From positions 762,295 through 826,294 of the forward strand of contig NZ_BMRJ01000001.1 of NCBI RefSeq assembly GCF_014648575.1: DNA of 64,000 bases, in the 5' to 3' direction. Below are positions 400 to 8,507 of this stretch, piece after piece (positions within the stretch are counted from its first letter, which is position 1; every line of letters starts with the position of its first letter). The notes under the pieces were generated by a model. It saw only the letters and a program-made list of their open reading frames with translations, was not told the origin of the DNA and ran no database searches. The DNA comes from Agromyces mediolanus. Lineage in GTDB: Bacteria > Actinomycetota > Actinomycetes > Actinomycetales > Microbacteriaceae. Both the position numbers and the translations under genes were made by a program.

Positions 400-1787
400 G
401 CGGGCCGCTCCGCCCGGCGATGCGCTCGGCTCGCCCAGAACAGCACCGGGATGAGCACGAGCGAGAGGATGCCGCCGCCGAGCGCCAGCGCCGCATAGCT
501 CGACGCCGCCATCACCACGCCGGACATCACGCCGCCGCCGGCCCCCGCGAGCGCGATCAGCACGTCGATCGTGCCCTGGGTGCGCGCCCGGTTCGCGGGT
601 ACCGTGGCGTCGACGACGAGCGCGGTGCCGGCGATGAGGCCGAAGTTCCAGCCGAGGCCGAGCAGCACGAGCGCGAGGATCAGCAGGCCGAGCGAGTCCG
701 CCGGGGCGACCGCCGCGACGATGCCGGCCGCGAGCAGGGTCACGCCCGCGGCGATCGCCATCGGCGTGCGGCCCACGCGGTCGACGAGCACGCCCGTGAC
801 GAGCGACGGCAGGTACATCGCCGCGATGTGCAGGCCGATGACGAGGCCGACCTCGCTGAGGCCGTGATGATGGGCGCGCATGTGCACCGGGGTCATCGTC
901 ATGATCGCCACCATCGCGATCTGCGTGAGCACCATCACGGTGGCGCCCGCGTACGCGCCGGGGCCGGGGCGTACGGGCGCAGGCGGAGCGGATGCCTCGG
1001 CAGGAGCGGATGCCGCACCGGGCGCGGATGCCTCGGCGGGCGGCACCGCCTCGGCCGGGTCCGGTGTCTCGACGGTCGCGGGCGCCTCGGCATCCGGCAG
1101 CCGGCGGGCGAGCAGGAAGGGGTCGGGCCGGAGCAGTGCGAGCAGCACCGCACCCGCGGCGACGTAGGCGGCCCCGCCGAGCAGGAACGGCCCCGCGAGC
1201 GCCGGGATGCCCCAGGACTCGGCGAGCCGGCCGAGCGGCTCGACGAGGTTGGGGCCGGCGACCGCGCCGAGCGTCGTCGACACCATCGCGATGCTGACGG
1301 CGGTGCCGCGGGTGCGCGGCGTCGCGAGGTCGGCTCCCGCGTACCTCGCCTGCAGGTTCGTCGCGGTGCCCGCCCCGTAGACGAAGAGCGAGAGGAACAG
1401 CAGCGGCACGTTGTCGGCGACGGCGGCGAGCACGACGCCCGCCGCGCCGATGCCGCCCGCGGCGAAGCCGAGGCCGAGCCCGAGTCGGCGACCTCGGCGC
1501 TGAGTGACCCGGCCGACGAGGAACGCGGCGAGCGCCGAACCGAGGGTGAAGAGCGCCGTCGGGACGCCGGCGAGGCCGTCGCTGCCGAGCACCTCCTGGG
1601 CGAGCAGCGCGCCGACGGTGACCCCGGCGGCGAGGCCGGCGCCGCCCAGCACCTGGCTCGCGACCACGACCGCGAGGGTGCGGCGCTGCAGCAGGCGGCG
1701 CAGCTCGTCGTCGGCGGCGACCTCGCGGGCGAGCTCGTCGAGCGCGGCGGCGCCGTGCGACGCTCGCGGCTCAGGCGATGCGGGCAA
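396..1787 (-). CDS. MFS transporter
   Basis: A 463-residue protein with twelve predicted hydrophobic segments in two bundles of six, and the loop motif GRVTQRRGRRLGLG after the second helix of the first half, as in major facilitator permeases. A Pro/Ala/Glu-rich linker (about residues 230-265) separates the halves. The start is a TTG that lies 17 bp inside the end of the ArsR-rhodanese gene, so the pair is one operon. The ArsR partner hints that the cargo is a metalloid, metal or reactive sulfur compound, but the substrate cannot be read from the sequence. Confidence 0.85.
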   Translation of the reverse strand: MPASPEPRASHGAAALDELAREVAADDELRRLLQRRTLAVVVASQVLGGAGLAAGVTVGALLAQEVLGSDGLAGVPTALFTLGSALAAFLVGRVTQRRGRRLGLGLGFAAGGIGAAGVVLAAVADNVPLLFLSLFVYGAGTATNLQARYAGADLATPRTRGTAVSIAMVSTTLGAVAGPNLVEPLGRLAESWGIPALAGPFLLGGAAYVAAGAVLLALLRPDPFLLARRLPDAEAPATVETPDPAEAVPPAEASAPGAASAPAEASAPPAPVRPGPGAYAGATVMVLTQIAMVAIMTMTPVHMRAHHHGLSEVGLVIGLHIAAMYLPSLVTGVLVDRVGRTPMAIAAGVTLLAAGIVAAVAPADSLGLLILALVLLGLGWNFGLIAGTALVVDATVPANRARTQGTIDVLIALAGAGGGVMSGVVMAASSYAALALGGGILSLVLIPVLFWASRAHRRAERPA

Positions 1788-2445
1788 GGTCGTCTCCGTC
1801 CGTCGCGCGCCATTCGATGACGCCCTCGTTCATGGCGGAGGCGCGCAGGCCCTTCGCCCGGAGCAGGAGGGCCGCCTCCCGGGCCATCCGGCAGAACTCG
1901 CCGCGGCAGTAGACGACGACCTCCCCGTCGGGGTCGAGCTCGACGTGGCGTGCCTCGAGCTCGTCGAGGGGGATGGAGACGGCGCCCGGCACGTGTCCGG
2001 CGTCGTACTCGAGCCGCGGGCGAACGTCGAGGACCGTGGCCGACGGCGCGACCTCGGCGCGCGAGACGAGCGGCAGCTCGGCGGCGCCTTCCGGTGCCCC
2101 GAGGTAGCCGTCGAGCGTCGCCCGGAGCGTCGGCGAGTGCCGGAGGGCGACCCGCTTGGCCACGAGGTAGAGCTCGGCGACCTCCGGGCCGGCGAGCGAG
2201 TAGTGCACGGTGGTGCGCTCGCGCCGGGCGCGCACGAGTCCGGCCTGGCGCAGCGTCTGCAGCGCCGAGGAGACGGTGGTGAGCGGCATGCCGGTCATCC
2301 GGGCGAGCACCTCGACCGAGTGCTCGCCCTGGGCGAGGAGCTCGACGAGTTCGAGCCGACGCCCGTTGGCGATGGCCTTCAGCGCCTCGGCGAGCGCGTC
2401 GTAGACCTCGAGCTTGTCGCCCGATCCGATATTCCGTGGATTCAC
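1771..2445 (-). CDS. ArsR-family regulator fused to a rhodanese domain
   Basis: Residues about 10-95 form a winged helix-turn-helix of the ArsR/SmtB type (MTGMPLTTVSSALQTLRQAG is the recognition region). Residues about 125-220 form a rhodanese domain with active-site Cys in VVYCRGEFCRMA. Such fusions couple DNA binding to a sulfurtransferase-like sensor of reactive sulfur or metalloid. The GTG start is supported by a -10 box TAGGCT six bases upstream, so the mRNA is probably leaderless. An 8+8 bp palindrome covers the start codon, implying autorepression. It is first in an operon with the MFS gene. The ligand is unknown. Confidence 0.88.
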   Translation of the reverse strand: MNPRNIGSGDKLEVYDALAEALKAIANGRRLELVELLAQGEHSVEVLARMTGMPLTTVSSALQTLRQAGLVRARRERTTVHYSLAGPEVAELYLVAKRVALRHSPTLRATLDGYLGAPEGAAELPLVSRAEVAPSATVLDVRPRLEYDAGHVPGAVSIPLDELEARHVELDPDGEVVVYCRGEFCRMAREAALLLRAKGLRASAMNEGVIEWRATDGDDLARIA

Positions 2446-2450
2446 GGAAT
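2431..2450 (-). promoter_or_regulatory. Operator palindrome over the arsR-rhodanese start
   Basis: ATTCCGTG and CACGGAAT form perfect 8-bp inverted arms around four bases. The site covers the GTG start codon (2443-2445) and the presumed transcription start, where a bound ArsR dimer would block RNA polymerase. Confidence 0.7.
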
Positions 2451-2451
2451 A

Positions 2452-2457
2452 AGCCTA
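2452..2457 (-). promoter_or_regulatory. -10 box TAGGCT of a leaderless arsR-rhodanese transcript
   Basis: TAGGCT on the minus strand lies six bases before the GTG start, the spacing expected when the first base of the start codon is the transcription start. No convincing -35 was found. Confidence 0.55.
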
Positions 2458-2473
2458 ACGGCTGGATCGGGCG

Positions 2474-3301
2474 CTACGTCTGGACCGCGGCGATGGGCTC
2501 CGTGGTGGGCTGCTCCGAGCCCCCGGCCGGTTCGACCGTGAGGCCGACGACCATGCCGTCGACGAAGTCGCCCTCGAGCACGCGCCAGCTGTTCGCGCCG
2601 ACGAGTCCCGCCGGCGCCGGCCCCGCCTCGTCGATGTACCAGAGCTCGTAGTCGTGCGTGGAGCCGAGCTCGGGCAGGCCGTTCGCCATGACCGCGCTGC
2701 GCCCGAGTTCGGCCGACCAGAGCACCGTCACCTCGCCGCCGCCGGACACCTCGACCGTCTGCCGCTGGGCGTCCGGGGCCGCCTCGAGGGCGGCGAGCTC
2801 GCGCTGCGCGCCCCAGCCGTTCGGGCCGGACCAGCCGATCCCGATCGCGACGCCGATCGCGAGGATCGCCACGGAGGCCGCGGCGGCCAGCGTCGTCACG
2901 AGGCGACGCCGCCGGCGCCGGGCGGCGAGCTCGTCGACGGGCCCAGCGTCGGGCTCGGGCGCAGCGGGCTCGGGCGCAGCGACGGGCTCGGGCGCCGTGT
3001 CGGGCTCGGATGCCGACGCCGGGAACGCGGTGGGCTCGGCGAGCGGTTCGGCATCCACCGGCGGCAGCTGCGGCGTCTCGTCGAGGCGGGCGAACAGCCC
3101 GGCCTTCAGCGAGGGCGGCGGCGCGAGCTCGGGCGCCTCCGCCCCGAGCCCGGCGGCGACGGCGCGGAAGCCGTCGACCTCGGCCCGGAGCTCGGGCGAT
3201 CGGGCGAGCTCAGCCTCGAAGCGGCGCAGCTCTTCGCCGTCGAGCGCGTCGAGCGCGTAGGCCGCCGCGAGCGCGCGGAGCTCCTCGTCGGGTTCGGTCA
3301 T
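2474..3301 (-). CDS. rskA: Anti-sigma-K factor RskA
   Basis: A 275-residue bitopic protein. Residues 1-50 (ALDALDGEELRRFEAELARS) match the cytosolic sigma-binding domain of RskA-type anti-sigma factors, without the zinc-binding HxxxCxxC. A long Pro/Ala/Glu linker follows, then one membrane span (about 134-157) preceded by six arginines, and an extracytoplasmic domain ending with GLTVEPAGGSEQPT. It holds SigK at the membrane until regulated proteolysis releases it. The ATG overlaps the sigK stop by 4 bp, so both are coexpressed. In mycobacteria the same pair controls dipZ and fasciclin lipoproteins, which are the next genes here. Confidence 0.92.
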   Translation of the reverse strand: MTEPDEELRALAAAYALDALDGEELRRFEAELARSPELRAEVDGFRAVAAGLGAEAPELAPPPSLKAGLFARLDETPQLPPVDAEPLAEPTAFPASASEPDTAPEPVAAPEPAAPEPDAGPVDELAARRRRRRLVTTLAAAASVAILAIGVAIGIGWSGPNGWGAQRELAALEAAPDAQRQTVEVSGGGEVTVLWSAELGRSAVMANGLPELGSTHDYELWYIDEAGPAPAGLVGANSWRVLEGDFVDGMVVGLTVEPAGGSEQPTTEPIAAVQT

Positions 3302-3942
3302 GAGGTCACCCCCAGCAGGTGGCGCAGCCGGATCATGCCGTCGCGCAATCGGGTCTTCACCGTGCCGAGGGGCAGTTCGAGCGCGTCGGCGATCTCGGAC
3401 TGACTCTTCCCCTCGTAATAGGCCATGGCGAGGGCGGTGCGTTGCGCCTCGCTGAGCTCGCCGAGCGCGGCGCTCACGCGCTCGTGCTCGACGCTGAGCT
3501 CCACGCGCTCCTCGACGTCCTCGGCGGGCGTGGCGAGCTCGCGGATGCCGGCGCGGAGATCGCGCTCGGCGCTCGCCTGCGCCGAACGCACCCGGTCCAC
3601 CGCACGGCGGTGCGCGATCGTCAGGAGCCAGGCGACGGCGGCGCCGCGGCTCGCGTCGAAGCGCGCCGCCTGCTGCCAGACCTCGAGGAACACGTCCTGG
3701 GTGACCTCCTCCGCCTGGGCGGCGTCGACGAGGATCCGTCGCACGAGGCCGAACACCCGCGGCGCGGTGCGGTCGTAGAGCTCGCCGAACGCGGCGCGGT
3801 CGCCGCCCGCCGTGCGCGCGAACAGCACGTCGATCGACGGCTCCCCGCTGCTGCCCTCGCCGTCGCTCACCCGACCAAGCATGGCAGACCCCCGGCCGAG
3901 CGTCGCCCGGTCGGCCCGAGGTCGTTCCAGCAGCTGGGTCAT
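3298..3942 (-). CDS. sigK: ECF RNA polymerase sigma factor SigK
   Basis: A 214-residue ECF sigma factor. Region 2 spans about residues 40-110 ([26 protein letters not shown], cut here: [13 protein letters not shown] is the diagnostic part) and region 4 spans about 145-205 ([20 protein letters not shown]). The ATG at 3942 overlaps the dipZ stop (ATGA), which fixes this start over an internal ATG at 3882. It directs transcription of dipZ and, divergently, the fasciclin lipoprotein gene through the promoters at 5.73-5.86 kb, and it would autoregulate because it lies downstream of dipZ. Assignment rests on sequence plus the conserved neighbourhood. Confidence 0.93.
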
Positions 3943-5690
3943 CCGAAGGTGAAGGAGTAGGCCTGCACGTCGCCCTCGACCGTGACGTCGAGGGTGCCGC
4001 GCTCGGGCGAGTCGGACTGGTGGACCGCGTAGGAGCGGGGGACGCCGGAGATCTCGATCCGCTGCGTCGTCCCGCCGTCGCGCACGGTGATGGTGCCCTC
4101 GCCGCCGAGCACCATGCGCACCTCGCTCGCGAGGTACGAGAGCCGCACGGCGGCCTTCCCGCCGTCGGCGGGGGCGATCGACTGGGTGTCGAGCGCCCAC
4201 GAGCCGTCGAGGGCGAAGCGGTCGTCGGCGAGCTTCGCGGGGAATGCGAACGCGCTCGTGCTGCGCCGGTAGGGCTCCTCGCCGCCGAAGTTCGCCTGCT
4301 TCGTGGTGCCGAGGAAGGTCTCGGGCGTGGTCGAGCCGGCGTCGGGCGTCTCGTCGGCCACCTCGGTGGCGGCCGGCAGGGCGACGCCCGGGTCGGCGTC
4401 CTCGAGGAGCTGGCGGATGAGCCGCTCGGTGTCGGCGTAGTGGCCCTCGCCGAAGGAGACCTGGCGCACGACGCCGTCGGCGTCGACGAGGTAGTGCGCG
4501 GGCCAGTAGCGGTTGCGGAAGTTCGTCCAGGTCGCGAGGTCGTTGTCGAGCGCGACGGGGTAGTCGATGCCGAAGTCGCGGATGCCGGCCTCGACGTTGC
4601 GCGGCTCCTTCTCGAAGGCGTACTCGGGCGAGTGCACGCCGATCACGCTGAGCCCGGCGTCGCGGTAGGCCTCGTCCCACGCGACGACGTGCGGGATCGA
4701 GCGCTGGCAGTTGATGCAGGAGTACGCCCAGAAGTCGATGAGCACGACCCGGCCGCGCAGCTCGTCGAGGTCGACGGCCGCGCCGTCCGGCGTGTTGAAC
4801 CACTGCTGGATGCCGCGGATCGAGGGCACGGGCCCGCACGATTCGAGCTCGGCGGCCCCGTTGGTGCACTGGTCGAGCTGGCGGTTCTCGTCGGTGACGA
4901 GGCCGCCGAGGTCGAGGGCCTGGGTGACCTCCTCCGACTGCGCGAGCTGCCGCTGCAGGTCGCTCGTGTAGTCGGGCACGAGCCGCTGCAGCGCGCCGGG
5001 CAGGTCGAAGACGAGCCCCACGGCGAGCGCGATCATGACGATGCCGCCGGTGATGCGCACGCCCCGCTGGTGCTTGCGGAACGCGGCGACGCGCTCGGCG
5101 ACCCGGCGGCCGGCGAGCGCGAACAGCAGCAGCGGCGCGGCCGCGCCGAGCGCGAAGGTCACCGTGAGCACGATCGTCTCGACGCCGATGCGACCCGTCG
5201 AGCCGGCGACGGTGATCGCGGCGAGCACGGGGCCGGCGCAGGGCACGTAGACGGTGCCGAGCACGAGGCCGAGCACGAAGCCGTTGCCCTCGGTGCCGAC
5301 GCTGCGCCGCGGGATCCAGGCGAAGGGCTTCTCGAGCAGCTCCTCGAAGCGCGGCACGATGAGGCCGATGCCGATGAGCACGAGCACGACGAGGCCGGCC
5401 CAGCGGAGCACGTCCTGCGGCAGGCCGAGCAGCCCCAGCACGAGCGAGCCGGCGAGGGTGATCAGGCTGAAGCTCACGACGAGGCCGGCGATGACGAGGT
5501 AGGGCCGCCACCGGCTCGGGCCGGGCGGGGCGGCAGCCGGGACGCCGTCGGGGTCGACCGCGGTCCCCGCGGCGCTGCGTGCGCTCTGCGCGCCGCCCGA
5601 GAGCAGGATCACGGGCAGCACGGGCAGGATGCACGGCGAGATCCCGGTGATGAGACCGCCGGCCAGGCCGATCAGGGCGAGCGCGATCAT
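3939..5690 (-). CDS. dipZ: DipZ-like cytochrome c biogenesis/thioredoxin membrane protein
   Basis: A 583-residue fusion. Residues 1-235 form a CcdA/DsbD-type membrane domain with the redox cysteines in SPCILP (C20) and VPCAGP (C151). Residues about 290-435 form a TlpA-like thioredoxin domain with active site SCINC (C325, C328), and the last 150 residues form a beta-rich extracytoplasmic domain typical of DipZ. It passes electrons from the cytosol to extracytoplasmic disulfide exchange. The ATG at 5690 is used because longer frames run into the intergenic promoter region. A SigK-type promoter lies 43 bp upstream, and it shares an ATGA overlap with sigK. Confidence 0.92.
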
Positions 5691-5732
5691 GGGGTCCCTC
5701 GATTCAGCTGGGCGACGGGTGGGCTGCCAGGG

Positions 5733-5759
5733 ATTCGGAGCGGACGCCGGATCGGATGG
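5733..5759 (-). promoter_or_regulatory. SigK-type promoter for dipZ-sigK-rskA
   Basis: On the minus strand CCATCC (5759-5754) and CCGAAT (5738-5733) are 15 bases apart. These hexamers match the mycobacterial SigK -35/-10 elements as I recall them. The inferred transcript starts about 36 bases before the dipZ ATG. Confidence 0.65.
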
Positions 5760-5829
5760 CCCGAGGCATCCGGCGGGGCGGACGCCGCGGTACCCGGCGA
5801 GGCCGCCCCGAGGCATCCGCGATTCCGTC

Positions 5830-5856
5830 CAATCCGATCGGCGGATGCCTCCGAAT
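5830..5856 (+). promoter_or_regulatory. SigK-type promoter for the fasciclin lipoprotein gene
   Basis: CAATCC (5830-5835) and CCGAAT (5851-5856) are again 15 bases apart. The two divergent sites share ATCCGATC at the -35 side and CTCCGAATCCC at the -10 side. The inferred leader is about 42 bases and ends with a strong AAGGAGG before the ATG. Confidence 0.65.
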
Positions 5857-5904
5857 CCCCCGTGTCGGCCAGAACCGGGCCGACGCATCCGAAGGAGGAA
5901 GTCC

Positions 5905-6564
5905 ATGCGCACGATCCGCACTCGCACCGCATCCGCCCTCGTCGCCCTCGCGGCGATCACCTCGCTCGGCCTCGCCGGGTGCAGCATGGGCGGCTCGTCC
6001 ACTCCCAGCGAGGAGTCGACGCCGAAGACGGAGTCGACGCCCTCGGCCGAGTCGATGGAGACCGACCCCGCCGCCGACCTCGTGGGCTCCGGCTGCGCGG
6101 CCTACGCCGAGCAGGTGCCCGACGGCGCCGGCTCGATCGTCGGCATGTCGCAGGACCCGGTCGCCGTCGCGGCCTCGAACAACCCGCTGCTGACGACGCT
6201 CGTCGCGGCGGTCTCCGGTCAGCTGAACCCCGACGTGAACCTCGTCGACACGCTGAACGGCGACGAGTTCACCGTGTTCGCCCCCGTCGACGACGCCTTC
6301 GCGAAGATCGACCCGGCGACGATCGAGTCCCTGAAGACCGACTCGGCGACGCTCACCTCGATCCTCACGTACCACGTGGTGCCCGGTCAGCTCTCGCCCG
6401 ACGAGGTCGTGGGCACGCAGACCACGGTGCAGGGCGGCACGGTCGAGGTGACCGGCTCGGGCGACTCGCTCAAGGTCAACGACGCCAACGTCATCTGTGG
6501 CGGCGTGCACACCGCGAACGCGACCGTCTACCTCATCGACGGCGTGCTGATGCCCCCGATGTGA
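5905..6564 (+). CDS. Fasciclin-domain (MPT83/MPT70-like) lipoprotein
   Basis: A 219-residue secreted lipoprotein. The signal peptide ends in a lipobox SLGLAGC, with the lipidated Cys near residue 27. A Ser/Thr/Glu-rich linker follows, then one FAS1 domain (about residues 75-219) with the H1 and H2 motifs [12 protein letters not shown] and LTYHVVPGQ. The family mediates adhesion or envelope functions. AAGGAGG six bases upstream fixes the ATG. It lies divergent from dipZ and has its own SigK-type promoter, matching the SigK regulon arrangement mpt83/dipZ/mpt70 of mycobacteria. Its exact partner is unknown. Confidence 0.92.
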
Positions 6565-6570
6565 TCCCCG

Positions 6571-6594
6571 CGTGCGTCGGCAGCACGACGCACG
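6571..6594 (+). terminator. Terminator hairpin after the fasciclin gene
   Basis: CGTGCGTCG and CGACGCACG form a 9-bp stem with a 6-base loop, seven bases after the stop codon. There is no U-run, as is common in actinobacteria. Confidence 0.5.
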
Positions 6595-6600
6595 CGCTCA

Positions 6601-6637
6601 CATCGGGACCCCCGAGTTCATCGGGAACCCCCGAGTT
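6601..6637. repeat. Tandem pair of an 18/19-bp unit
   Basis: CATCGGGACCCCCGAGTT is followed directly by CATCGGGAACCCCCGAGTT, one base longer. The second unit runs into the adjacent dispersed palindrome, sharing GAGTT. Confidence 0.6.
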
Positions 6638-6667
6638 GCCCGACTTTCATGGAAGTCGGGCAACTCG
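6632..6667. repeat. Dispersed palindromic repeat, copy 1
   Basis: CGAGTTGCCCGACTT and its exact reverse complement flank TCATGG, making a 15-bp stem. A nearly identical element lies at 14030-14063. Here it sits between two convergent genes and may act as a bidirectional terminator. Confidence 0.75.
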
Positions 6668-6686
6668 CCTGTTCAGGGGGTGCCGC

Positions 6687-8507
6687 TCACTCGACGGCGT
6701 CGTCCGAGCGTTCGCGCTTCGTCGTCGCCCCGCGCTCGGGGATGAGCGCGTAGTCGGTCAAGAGCTCCCCGATCTGCGTGCCGTCGAGCTTCGCGAACAG
6801 CCGCTCGCGCAGGAACTTCGGCCCCGGCAACCCCACCTCGGCGCCGTCGCGCAGGCGGCTCGTCGCGTTCAGCAGCCAGCGCACGTCGTACGTCGAGCCG
6901 AACACCTCCGGCACCCCGCGGTCGACGCCCAGCAGCTGGTACGCGGCCTCCATGCCGGTGCGCACCGAGTACTCGGTGGTGAAGATGCAGTCGCGCGTGG
7001 TCTCGGCGAACTGCCCGATGAAGGCGAAGTTCTGTGCGCCCGCCGGCACCACCGCGGGCCGGTCGCCCGCCTCCCGCGGCATGAAGAACGAGGTGACGTA
7101 CGGCATCATCACCGGCACGCAGCTGGCGGCCTCCGCGGCGAGCCCGTCGATCTCCTCGACCGGGACGCCGAGGTGGTACAGCCACTCGCGGGTGATCTCC
7201 TCGCCCGTCGACTCCTGCAGCGTCTTGCCCGTGTAGTCGCCCGGCACGTCGACGAACAGGCCGTACACCCAGACCACGATCTGGTCGGCGGGCTGCTGCT
7301 TGAAGTGCGGCTGCCGGTTCACCGTCCAGCTCATCAGCCACGCCGAGTCGCGCGCGGTGACGATGCCGCCGGTCACGACGCGGCCGCTGAACGGGTCGCG
7401 CTTCGCGATGCGGCGGATGTACTCGGGGATCCGCTCGTCGAGCGTCGTGACCGTCGCCGACTCCCACTTGGTCTTCGCGATGTCGCCGCAGAAGACCTCG
7501 GGACGACCGAAGGACGAATGCTTCGCCGCGATGTTCTGCCAGAGCGCCCAGCCGGCCGCGGGGGACTCGTCGAGCTTCGCGGGCGTGTGCTGGTCGCCCT
7601 CGTTGGAGTTCTCGGTGAGCCCGCCGATGGTCGCGAGCACGAGGTCGTCGTCGCCGAGGTCGACGCCGCCCTCCACGCCGTCCTGCACCCAGTGGATGCG
7701 GGTCGCGCGCTTCGAGGCATCCGGCTCGTCGCCGTCGATCGCGAAGTCGATGTCCGTGACCTGCGTGTCGAAGTGGAAGGTGACGCCCTGGTCGAGCAGC
7801 CAGCGGTACATCGGCAGCACGAGCGACTCGTATTGGTTGTACTTCGTGAACTTCAGCGCCGAGAGGTCGGGCAGCCCGCCGATGTGGTGCACGAAGCGGT
7901 GCAGGTAGAGCTTCATCTCGAGCGCCGAGTGCCACTCCTCGAAGGCGAACATGGTGCGCCAGTACAGCCAGAAGTTGCTCTCGAGGAAGTCCTTCGAGAA
8001 CACCTCGTCGATGCGCTTGCGCTCCATCTCCTCGCGGGTGGCGAGGAAGATGCGCACGATGTCCTTCTGCGCGGTGTCGTTGAGCCCGAAGAGGTTGTTC
8101 GTGTGGGCGTCCTGGCCCTGCTGCTCGGTGACGCGGCAGAGCGAGAAGTTCGGGTCGTCCTTGTTGAGCCAGAAGAACTCGTCGAGCACGCTCGCGCCCT
8201 CGATCTCGAGCGACGGCACCGTGCGGAACGCGTCCCACAGGCACTCCATGTGGTCTTCCATCTCGCGCCCGCCGCGGATGACGAAGCCCTTCGCCGGCTT
8301 CTTGATGCCGTCGAGCGCGCCGCCCGGCAGCGGCAGCCGCTCGAGGATCGTGATGCGCTCCCCCGGCAGCTGGCCGTCTCGGATCATGAAGAGCGCGGAG
8401 GACATGGAGGCGAGCCCCGCCCCCACGAACCACGCCGACGCCCGATCCGATCGCTCCGGCTTGCGCGGCCTCGCGAATGCCTCGTAATTGCCCGTGCTGT
8501 AGTACAT
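6687..8507 (-). CDS. ohyA: Oleate hydratase (MCRA family)
   Basis: A 606-residue FAD protein of the 67-kDa myosin-cross-reactive-antigen family. Residues 1-60 hold the FAD-binding fold (AWFVGAGLASMSSALFMIRD), and the family segments GGREMEDHMECLWD and FFMPREAGDRPAVVP are present. It adds water to the cis-9 double bond of unsaturated fatty acids, giving 10-hydroxystearate from oleate, often as detoxification. It is full length for the family. The ATG follows GGGGGAG, and a TAGCGT -10 box lies about 55 bases upstream on the minus strand. It stands alone, with no obvious operon partner. Confidence 0.95.
   Translation of the reverse strand: MYYSTGNYEAFARPRKPERSDRASAWFVGAGLASMSSALFMIRDGQLPGERITILERLPLPGGALDGIKKPAKGFVIRGGREMEDHMECLWDAFRTVPSLEIEGASVLDEFFWLNKDDPNFSLCRVTEQQGQDAHTNNLFGLNDTAQKDIVRIFLATREEMERKRIDEVFSKDFLESNFWLYWRTMFAFEEWHSALEMKLYLHRFVHHIGGLPDLSALKFTKYNQYESLVLPMYRWLLDQGVTFHFDTQVTDIDFAIDGDEPDASKRATRIHWVQDGVEGGVDLGDDDLVLATIGGLTENSNEGDQHTPAKLDESPAAGWALWQNIAAKHSSFGRPEVFCGDIAKTKWESATVTTLDERIPEYIRRIAKRDPFSGRVVTGGIVTARDSAWLMSWTVNRQPHFKQQPADQIVVWVYGLFVDVPGDYTGKTLQESTGEEITREWLYHLGVPVEEIDGLAAEAASCVPVMMPYVTSFFMPREAGDRPAVVPAGAQNFAFIGQFAETTRDCIFTTEYSVRTGMEAAYQLLGVDRGVPEVFGSTYDVRWLLNATSRLRDGAEVGLPGPKFLRERLFAKLDGTQIGELLTDYALIPERGATTKRERSDDAVE

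Follow-up and report, generated by a model that had tools for sequence, protein, structure and literature searches.

A SigK-type locus in Agromyces mediolanus

Does the cluster of sigK, rskA, dipZ and a fasciclin lipoprotein gene in Agromyces mediolanus form a regulon in which the sigma factor SigK would drive its neighbours and itself, as in mycobacteria? We analysed a stretch of 64,000 nt that contains this cluster (contig NZ_BMRJ01000001.1, positions 762,295 to 826,294, hereafter the window, in whose numbering positions are given). A previous reading made from the sequence alone, hereafter the sequence-only reading, had proposed a SigK regulon with two divergent promoters, and the results support this proposal in part: the locus fits a regulon of SigK type, its two predicted promoters pointing away from each other and its regulator placed to raise its own expression. 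Judged from the sequence, a SigK-RskA switch is very probably stored here together with its targets.

The gene coordinates, together with sequence matches to domain models and solved proteins, bear out that the four genes lie together (Table 1). As the sequence-only reading had noted, sigK follows dipZ with an ATGA overlap, and sigK and rskA overlap in the same way, all on the minus strand. The range given for the locus, 3298-6564, leaves out rskA, which belongs to the same operon. The gap between dipZ and the fasciclin gene (fas) is 214 nt long and contains two back-to-back boxes, CCATCC-N15-CCGAAT before dipZ and CAATCC-N15-CCGAAT before fas, both exactly where they had been reported. In the dipZ box the -35 element (GGATGG/CCATCC) is at 5754-5759 and the -10 element CCGAAT at 5733-5738, and the box ends 42 nt before the dipZ ATG. 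In the fas box the corresponding elements are at 5830-5835 and 5851-5856, and the box ends 48 nt before the ATG. The distance between the two boxes is 70 bp. The joint pattern CMATCC-N15-CCGAAT has only these 2 sites in the window and 0 in 100 dinucleotide-preserving shuffles. Neither sigma-70 promoters nor intrinsic terminators were found in window positions 1600-6800. The pattern resembles what we take to be the mycobacterial SigK consensus, although our literature search found no paper giving that consensus.

The flanks ATCCGATC and CTCCGAATCCC, which had been described as shared by both boxes, are present. A family profile of 57 sites shows the same bases, with G (79%) after CAATCC, T (72%) directly before CCGAAT and C (74% and 79%) two and three bases past CCGAAT, so the flanks are best read as part of an extended family promoter consensus and not as a separate repeat.

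Sequence matches bear out the names of all four genes. SigK scores 255.2 bits against the curated SigK model PRK09646 (cut-off 226), and among proteins of solved structure it is closest in sequence to Mycobacterium tuberculosis SigK (4nqw, 157.8 bits; runner-up 93.2). The gene directly after sigK encodes a protein with the RskA C-terminal domain (RskA_C, 73 bits against a cut-off of 29.4), which also matches an NCBIfam anti-sigma model with 174.7 bits (cut-off 100). DipZ contains the domains DsbD_TM, AhpC-TSA and Thioredoxin_10, and the solved protein nearest to it is M. tuberculosis DipZ (5cyy, 385.7 bits). All six cysteines of the Agromyces DipZ, C325-C328 of the CxxC motif among them, are invariant in 19 aligned homologues, and among the best 80 of 584 matches the nearest named genome is Agromyces soli, with 97% DipZ identity. 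The fasciclin protein scores 99.2 bits for the Fasciclin domain (cut-off 22), and MPT70 (1nyo, 223.1 bits) is its best solved relative, with both cysteines aligned. All 58 of 58 family orthologues retain these two cysteines, Cys64 and Cys198. The predicted lipobox Cys26 is kept in 50 of 50 orthologues where it is alignable.

In the whole genome there are exactly three CMATCC-N15-CCGAAT sites, those of dipZ and fas and a third one outside the window, 42 nt upstream of a gene for a 135-aa DUF4383 protein (PF14325, 98.3 bits; box and gene at G000:C1:116265-116738). The description of the locus as a complete regulon therefore fails, since an exact site stands before a distant gene of the same genome. 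A relaxed search of the genome gave 7 sites, and only these three end in CCGAAT.

Table 1. Genes and predicted promoters of the sigK locus (window numbering)
Feature	Position	Strand	Remarks
rskA, anti-sigma factor	2474..3301	-	last operon gene; start overlaps sigK end
sigK, extracytoplasmic function (ECF) sigma factor	3298..3942	-	ATGA overlap with dipZ; protein without cysteine
dipZ, membrane thiol-disulfide protein (CcdA/DsbD-like membrane part, thioredoxin CxxC, C-terminal domain)	3939..5690	-	first operon gene
predicted SigK promoter of dipZ-sigK-rskA	5733..5759	-	CCATCC-N15-CCGAAT
predicted SigK promoter of the fasciclin gene	5830..5856	+	CAATCC-N15-CCGAAT
fasciclin-domain lipoprotein gene (fas), MPT70/MPT83-like	5905..6564	+	divergent from dipZ

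Fixed spacing and conservation of the boxes

SigK was searched with E 1e-30 over 199 genomes of the family (Microbacteriaceae), drawn from a larger group, and was found in 124 of them. For these genomes the sigK loci comprise 120 fetched loci (most of them 18 kb) and the window; G047, G096 and G113 were left out. We scanned 2.13 Mb of the 120 loci on both strands with spacers of 6-29. CMATCC..CCGAAT, made up only of the window's own hexamers, had 47 matches at spacer 15, 1 at spacer 16 and 0-2 at each other spacer. The form ending in CCGAAC showed the same preference (47 at spacer 15, 0-4 elsewhere) and joined the consensus, then written CCGAAY, after this result. Since no site occurred in 100 window shuffles, and 47 matches at spacer 15 face at most 2 elsewhere, a chance origin of the boxes is excluded. 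The strict 15-base spacer makes SigK targets predictable in Microbacteriaceae. A reversed-pattern control (1 match in all) was set aside, as the reversed pattern holds TAA, and the spacer test was used instead.

Two wider descriptions of the box were used besides the exact one. The profile, with a threshold score of 12, is descriptive and no independent test, since the exact sites of these very genomes served to train it; the relaxed pattern CMAWCC-N15-MCGAA[T/C/G] was chosen after the profile.

Named dipZ loci were taken as the best 80 of 584 confirmed matches, nearest to the query. The divergent fas-dipZ pair (74 of 80) is a commoner unit among them than the full fas/dipZ/sigK/rskA locus (46 of 80). 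The sequence-only reading was to be refuted if the motif pair were not kept in orthologous loci, and the counts do not refute it. Of these 46 four-gene loci, 42 have the relaxed box upstream of fas and 21 upstream of dipZ; 20 have both boxes and 3 have neither. The corresponding strict counts are 30, 13, 8 and 11. No relaxed box has a spacer of 11-14 or 17-19, and spacer 16 occurs 3 times, before dipZ. Because the fas box is present in 42 of 46 loci and a relaxed box leading into dipZ or directly into sigK in 25 of 46, the predicted fas promoter appears near constant and the route to sigK variable. The suggestion that the locus would be self-amplifying may hold for the window, where the dipZ box is present, but it is not general, given those 25 of 46.

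For all genomes with sigK, we counted exact CMATCC-N15-CCGAAY sites within 300 nt upstream of the three kinds of target. They were present before 28 of 57 fas, 10 of 31 dipZ and 19 of 82 DUF4383 genes, while the same count summed over 8 other spacers gave 1, 3 (all at spacer 16) and 0, respectively. By the profile, 40 of 57 fas, 11 of 31 dipZ and 46 of 82 DUF4383 promoters reach the threshold; eight distant spacers yield on average 1.75, 0.5 and 1.4.

The box is also found before sigK itself. There are 89 loci in which neither fas nor dipZ was classed as lying upstream of sigK in the orientations seen in the window, although a few of them hold those genes elsewhere. Of these 89, 59 have a relaxed box in the 400 nt upstream of sigK, and eight other spacers together give 1. 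In the other classes it was found in 5 of 11 fas-type loci (plus 2 at spacer 16) and 8 of 20 dipZ-type loci (1 at spacer 16). Autoregulation of sigK would be common on account of the 59 of 89, and in the window the dipZ box would be its route.

A DUF4383 gene as predicted SigK target

DUF4383 orthologues occur in 78 of the 124 genomes with sigK and in 6 of the 75 without it (Fisher p 1.5e-15, uncorrected for kinship and genome size). The DUF4383 gene lies within the 18-kb sigK locus in 8 of 120 cases. In Agromyces agglutinans and A. lapidis a DUF4383 gene is downstream of fas on the same strand. The exact box precedes none of the 6 DUF4383 genes of genomes without sigK. The DUF4383 gene is accordingly a predicted member of the SigK regulon, and this is the new part of the finding. 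Our literature search found no report tying DUF4383 to a sigma factor, and none of it as a SigK target; a hypoxia study of Mycobacterium avium, in the part available, names a DUF4383 gene without SigK.

Several DUF4383 promoters (L239, L247, L254, L259, L260, L193, L231) have ACGAAT or CAAACC, with the spacer still 15. These forms may mean that SigK specificity has drifted between lineages, or that a different sigma factor is at work.

We see about an even chance for a broader view, in which SigK of Microbacteriaceae runs a small envelope module with DUF4383 as a core target, present and carrying the box even where neither fas nor dipZ is beside sigK, and in which SigK is released not through the redox state of its cysteines but by another signal. 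If true, DUF4383 would be an unrecognised family of SigK targets and a working partner of the DipZ/fasciclin pathway.

Alternative explanations of the boxes

The boxes might be promoters of another ECF sigma factor, with SigK a mere neighbour or sharing them. A first look at the A. mediolanus genome gave 49 SigK-like stretch candidates, several family genomes have 2 or 3 SigK-like genes, and some genomes without sigK have box-like promoters before DUF4383 (2 of 6, with scores of 15.4 and 13.1, above the threshold of 12). We nevertheless consider this improbable, for the box precedes sigK itself in 59 of 89 loci, DUF4383 tracks sigK across the genomes, and the proteins match M. tuberculosis SigK, DipZ and MPT70, whose genes are described as having SigK promoters (PMC9861118, available in part, as are the other papers cited by number below). 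Even less credible is a single operator or hairpin for another regulator, with the two boxes as its arms instead of two promoters. The repeat search does give an inverted repeat at 5730-5757/5832-5859 with 28-nt arms that are 75% complementary, but before DUF4383 and, elsewhere, before sigK the box occurs singly, with its 15-nt spacer and about as far from the start codon, and the fas box is kept without the dipZ box in 22 of the 46 named loci; we give this idea hardly any weight.

SigK as the reader of the boxes remains our preferred explanation, and several observations, the two high-scoring promoters of genomes without sigK among them, weigh against it. The exact CMATCC-N15-CCGAAT pattern is found in 96 of 124 genomes with sigK but also in 27 of 75 without it (hand count), and some exact sites are coding coincidences, inside sigK or at the end of cinA. 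By the relaxed pattern, the dipZ box is missing in 25 of the 46 named four-gene loci and in 4 of 6 named Agromyces loci. Below the profile threshold are 17 of 57 fas, 20 of 31 dipZ and 36 of 82 DUF4383 promoters, and the profile at spacer 16 still finds 5 fas, 4 dipZ and 7 DUF4383 promoters. For the anti-sigma factor, RskA_N, the N-terminal SigK-binding domain, reaches 23 bits against a cut-off of 27 (E 8.8e-05). Besides, of the 15 sigma-sigma links known in M. tuberculosis, published sigma consensus sequences are reported to have retrieved only 6 (PMC4821874).

Proposed regulation and signal sensing

In the mechanism that we propose, RskA would hold SigK until a signal frees it, and freed SigK would direct RNA polymerase to the CMATCC-N15-CCGAAY promoters, three in this genome. 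The first, that of dipZ-sigK-rskA, would raise SigK, its inhibitor and DipZ jointly; the second would serve the divergent gene for the MPT70/MPT83-like fasciclin lipoprotein, and the third the gene for the small hydrophobic DUF4383 protein elsewhere in the genome. DipZ would most likely make or repair an extracytoplasmic disulfide, namely that of the invariant cysteine pair of the fasciclin protein. The genes and their overlaps, the boxes, their fixed spacing and their conservation can be read from the sequences themselves. From these we infer that the boxes act as promoters in vivo, that SigK would be their reader, and that DipZ and the fasciclin protein would be joined in this chemistry. Release of SigK through RskA would follow the example of mycobacteria, where it is established. 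There, mpt83, dipZ and mpt70 are each described with a SigK-dependent promoter, and DipZ may form the disulfides of MPT83 and MPT70 (PMC9861118); RskA is described as both inhibiting and activating SigK, and RskA processing involves the Rip1 protease (PMC7509140).

For mycobacteria, too, the SigK signal is still described as unknown (PMC7509140). According to the same source, it makes a difference to SigK whether its cysteines 133 and 183 are oxidised, and both are found in 94% of ECF18 and 56% of ECF19 proteins. This pair is absent from the window SigK, which has no cysteine at all, and 103 of 120 family SigK stretches have none. The pair is not defining for SigK, because a natural cysteine-less SigK is reported to work (PMC7509140). 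Redox sensing by a SigK disulfide as proposed for M. tuberculosis therefore cannot apply to the window SigK, whose sensing must differ, and with most of the family proteins cysteine-less the M. tuberculosis redox model would not carry over to the family.

Known SigK systems and the origin of the arrangement

Earlier work, cited in PMC7509140 from Veyrier 2008, describes SigK sites as highly conserved in Actinobacteria, sigK as autoregulated, lipid-anchored MPT83 as the ancestral form, and mpt83-sigK-rskA as a minimal cassette with a SigK site that is kept even in Yersinia. Agromyces resembles this cassette (PMC7509140) in that window positions 2474-6564 have a fasciclin lipoprotein gene near sigK-rskA, here with dipZ between, and a SigK-type site upstream of the fasciclin gene. 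Unlike the cassette, Agromyces has dipZ as the first gene of the sigK operon and a distant DUF4383 gene with a box.

With the M. tuberculosis regulon the locus shares SigK, RskA, DipZ, MPT70/MPT83-type proteins and, as predicted here, SigK promoters of the targets and autoregulation (PMC9861118, PMC7509140). M. tuberculosis is described with two loci (mpt83-dipZ-mpt70 and Rv0449c-rskA) and two fasciclin paralogues (PMC10540498, PMC9861118). Agromyces, in contrast, has one locus and the distant DUF4383 gene, a single fasciclin gene beside dipZ, and a cysteine-less SigK. Its genome contains no DUF1365 gene; Rv0448c of M. tuberculosis is, we assume, a DUF1365 protein.

Outside mycobacteria, the island PiCp2 of Corynebacterium pseudotuberculosis is described with an anti-sigma gene (cskE), sigK and dipZ together, and no fasciclin gene is named alongside them in the available text (PMC3078919). 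A compact regulon in a non-mycobacterial actinobacterium is therefore not new, both this cluster and the mpt83-sigK-rskA cassette (PMC7509140) having been described earlier. A compact SigK regulon is known in kind, and the Agromyces locus adds another example together with DUF4383. The same source on PiCp2, with reference to Veyrier 2008, states that among Actinobacteria only pathogens have full-length dipZ. This is not borne out, as dipZ matches were found in environmental genera (Agromyces, Microbacterium, Leucobacter, Mycetocola and others). No paper joining fasciclin or dipZ with Microbacteriaceae was found in our literature search. MPT70, MPT83 and DipZ have been studied as antigens of the tuberculosis complex, and the same promoter-linked module in environmental genera suggests a basic role other than virulence. 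With their safe organisms, these genera are a place to look for the SigK signal and function, with DUF4383 as an added handle.

The sequence-only reading had further seen an ancestral compact form in the arrangement, with regulator and targets as one unit. In its favour, 46 of the 80 named loci, which are those closest to the query, have all four genes, C. pseudotuberculosis has cskE, sigK and dipZ side by side in one listing (PMC3078919), and the mpt83-sigK-rskA cassette is described as conserved as far as Yersinia (PMC7509140). That cassette is described without dipZ, however. Among the loci judged, sigK adjoins dipZ in 47 of 57 from Microbacteriaceae, against 1 of 8 from Pseudonocardiaceae and 0 of 10 from Demequinaceae. 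A DipZ tree (quick method, unrooted) gave at least 6 changes in dipZ-sigK adjacency, and gain and loss of the join cannot be told apart because the tree is unrooted. With this distribution by family the ancestral form is not supported, and we regard it as unlikely. We lean towards the dipZ-sigK join being a family-level feature atop a wider fas-dipZ pair, and it may be derived. A phylum-wide search found DipZ in 20 of 396 genomes.

Rejected sites and neighbouring features

Candidate sites before clgR, ending in GTCTCCGAAT and lying 157-239 nt upstream in 11 of 11 genomes, were rejected as a coding coincidence at the 3' end of cinA. These genomes had been picked for having sites with this ending, the sites (L161, L165, L407-L415) read by eye as the protein motif AIR...VSESL, and the A. 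mediolanus genome has no SigK-type site before clgR. Exact sites inside sigK (14 of 121 loci) were also discarded; where read by eye, they match a conserved part of the protein that ends in FDPN. Sites beginning with CAATCCAGTAATGCTAA in several genomes have the look of ribosomal RNA, by eye only.

On the far side of fas, window positions 6687-8507 (minus strand) carry an oleate hydratase gene (PRK13977, 863.8 bits against a cut-off of 567), convergent with the fasciclin gene. The gap between them contains inverted repeats at 6569-6596 and 6625-6674 (11 nt perfect; 25 nt at 84%), which are without the T-run of an intrinsic terminator. Just downstream of rskA, at 1771-2445 (minus strand), is a gene whose product joins an ArsR-type helix-turn-helix to a rhodanese domain. 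An inverted repeat with perfect 9-nt arms at 2430-2438/2443-2451 (TATTCCGTG/CACGGAATA) overlaps the start of this gene, and the protein is likely a self-regulated thiol or sulfur sensor.

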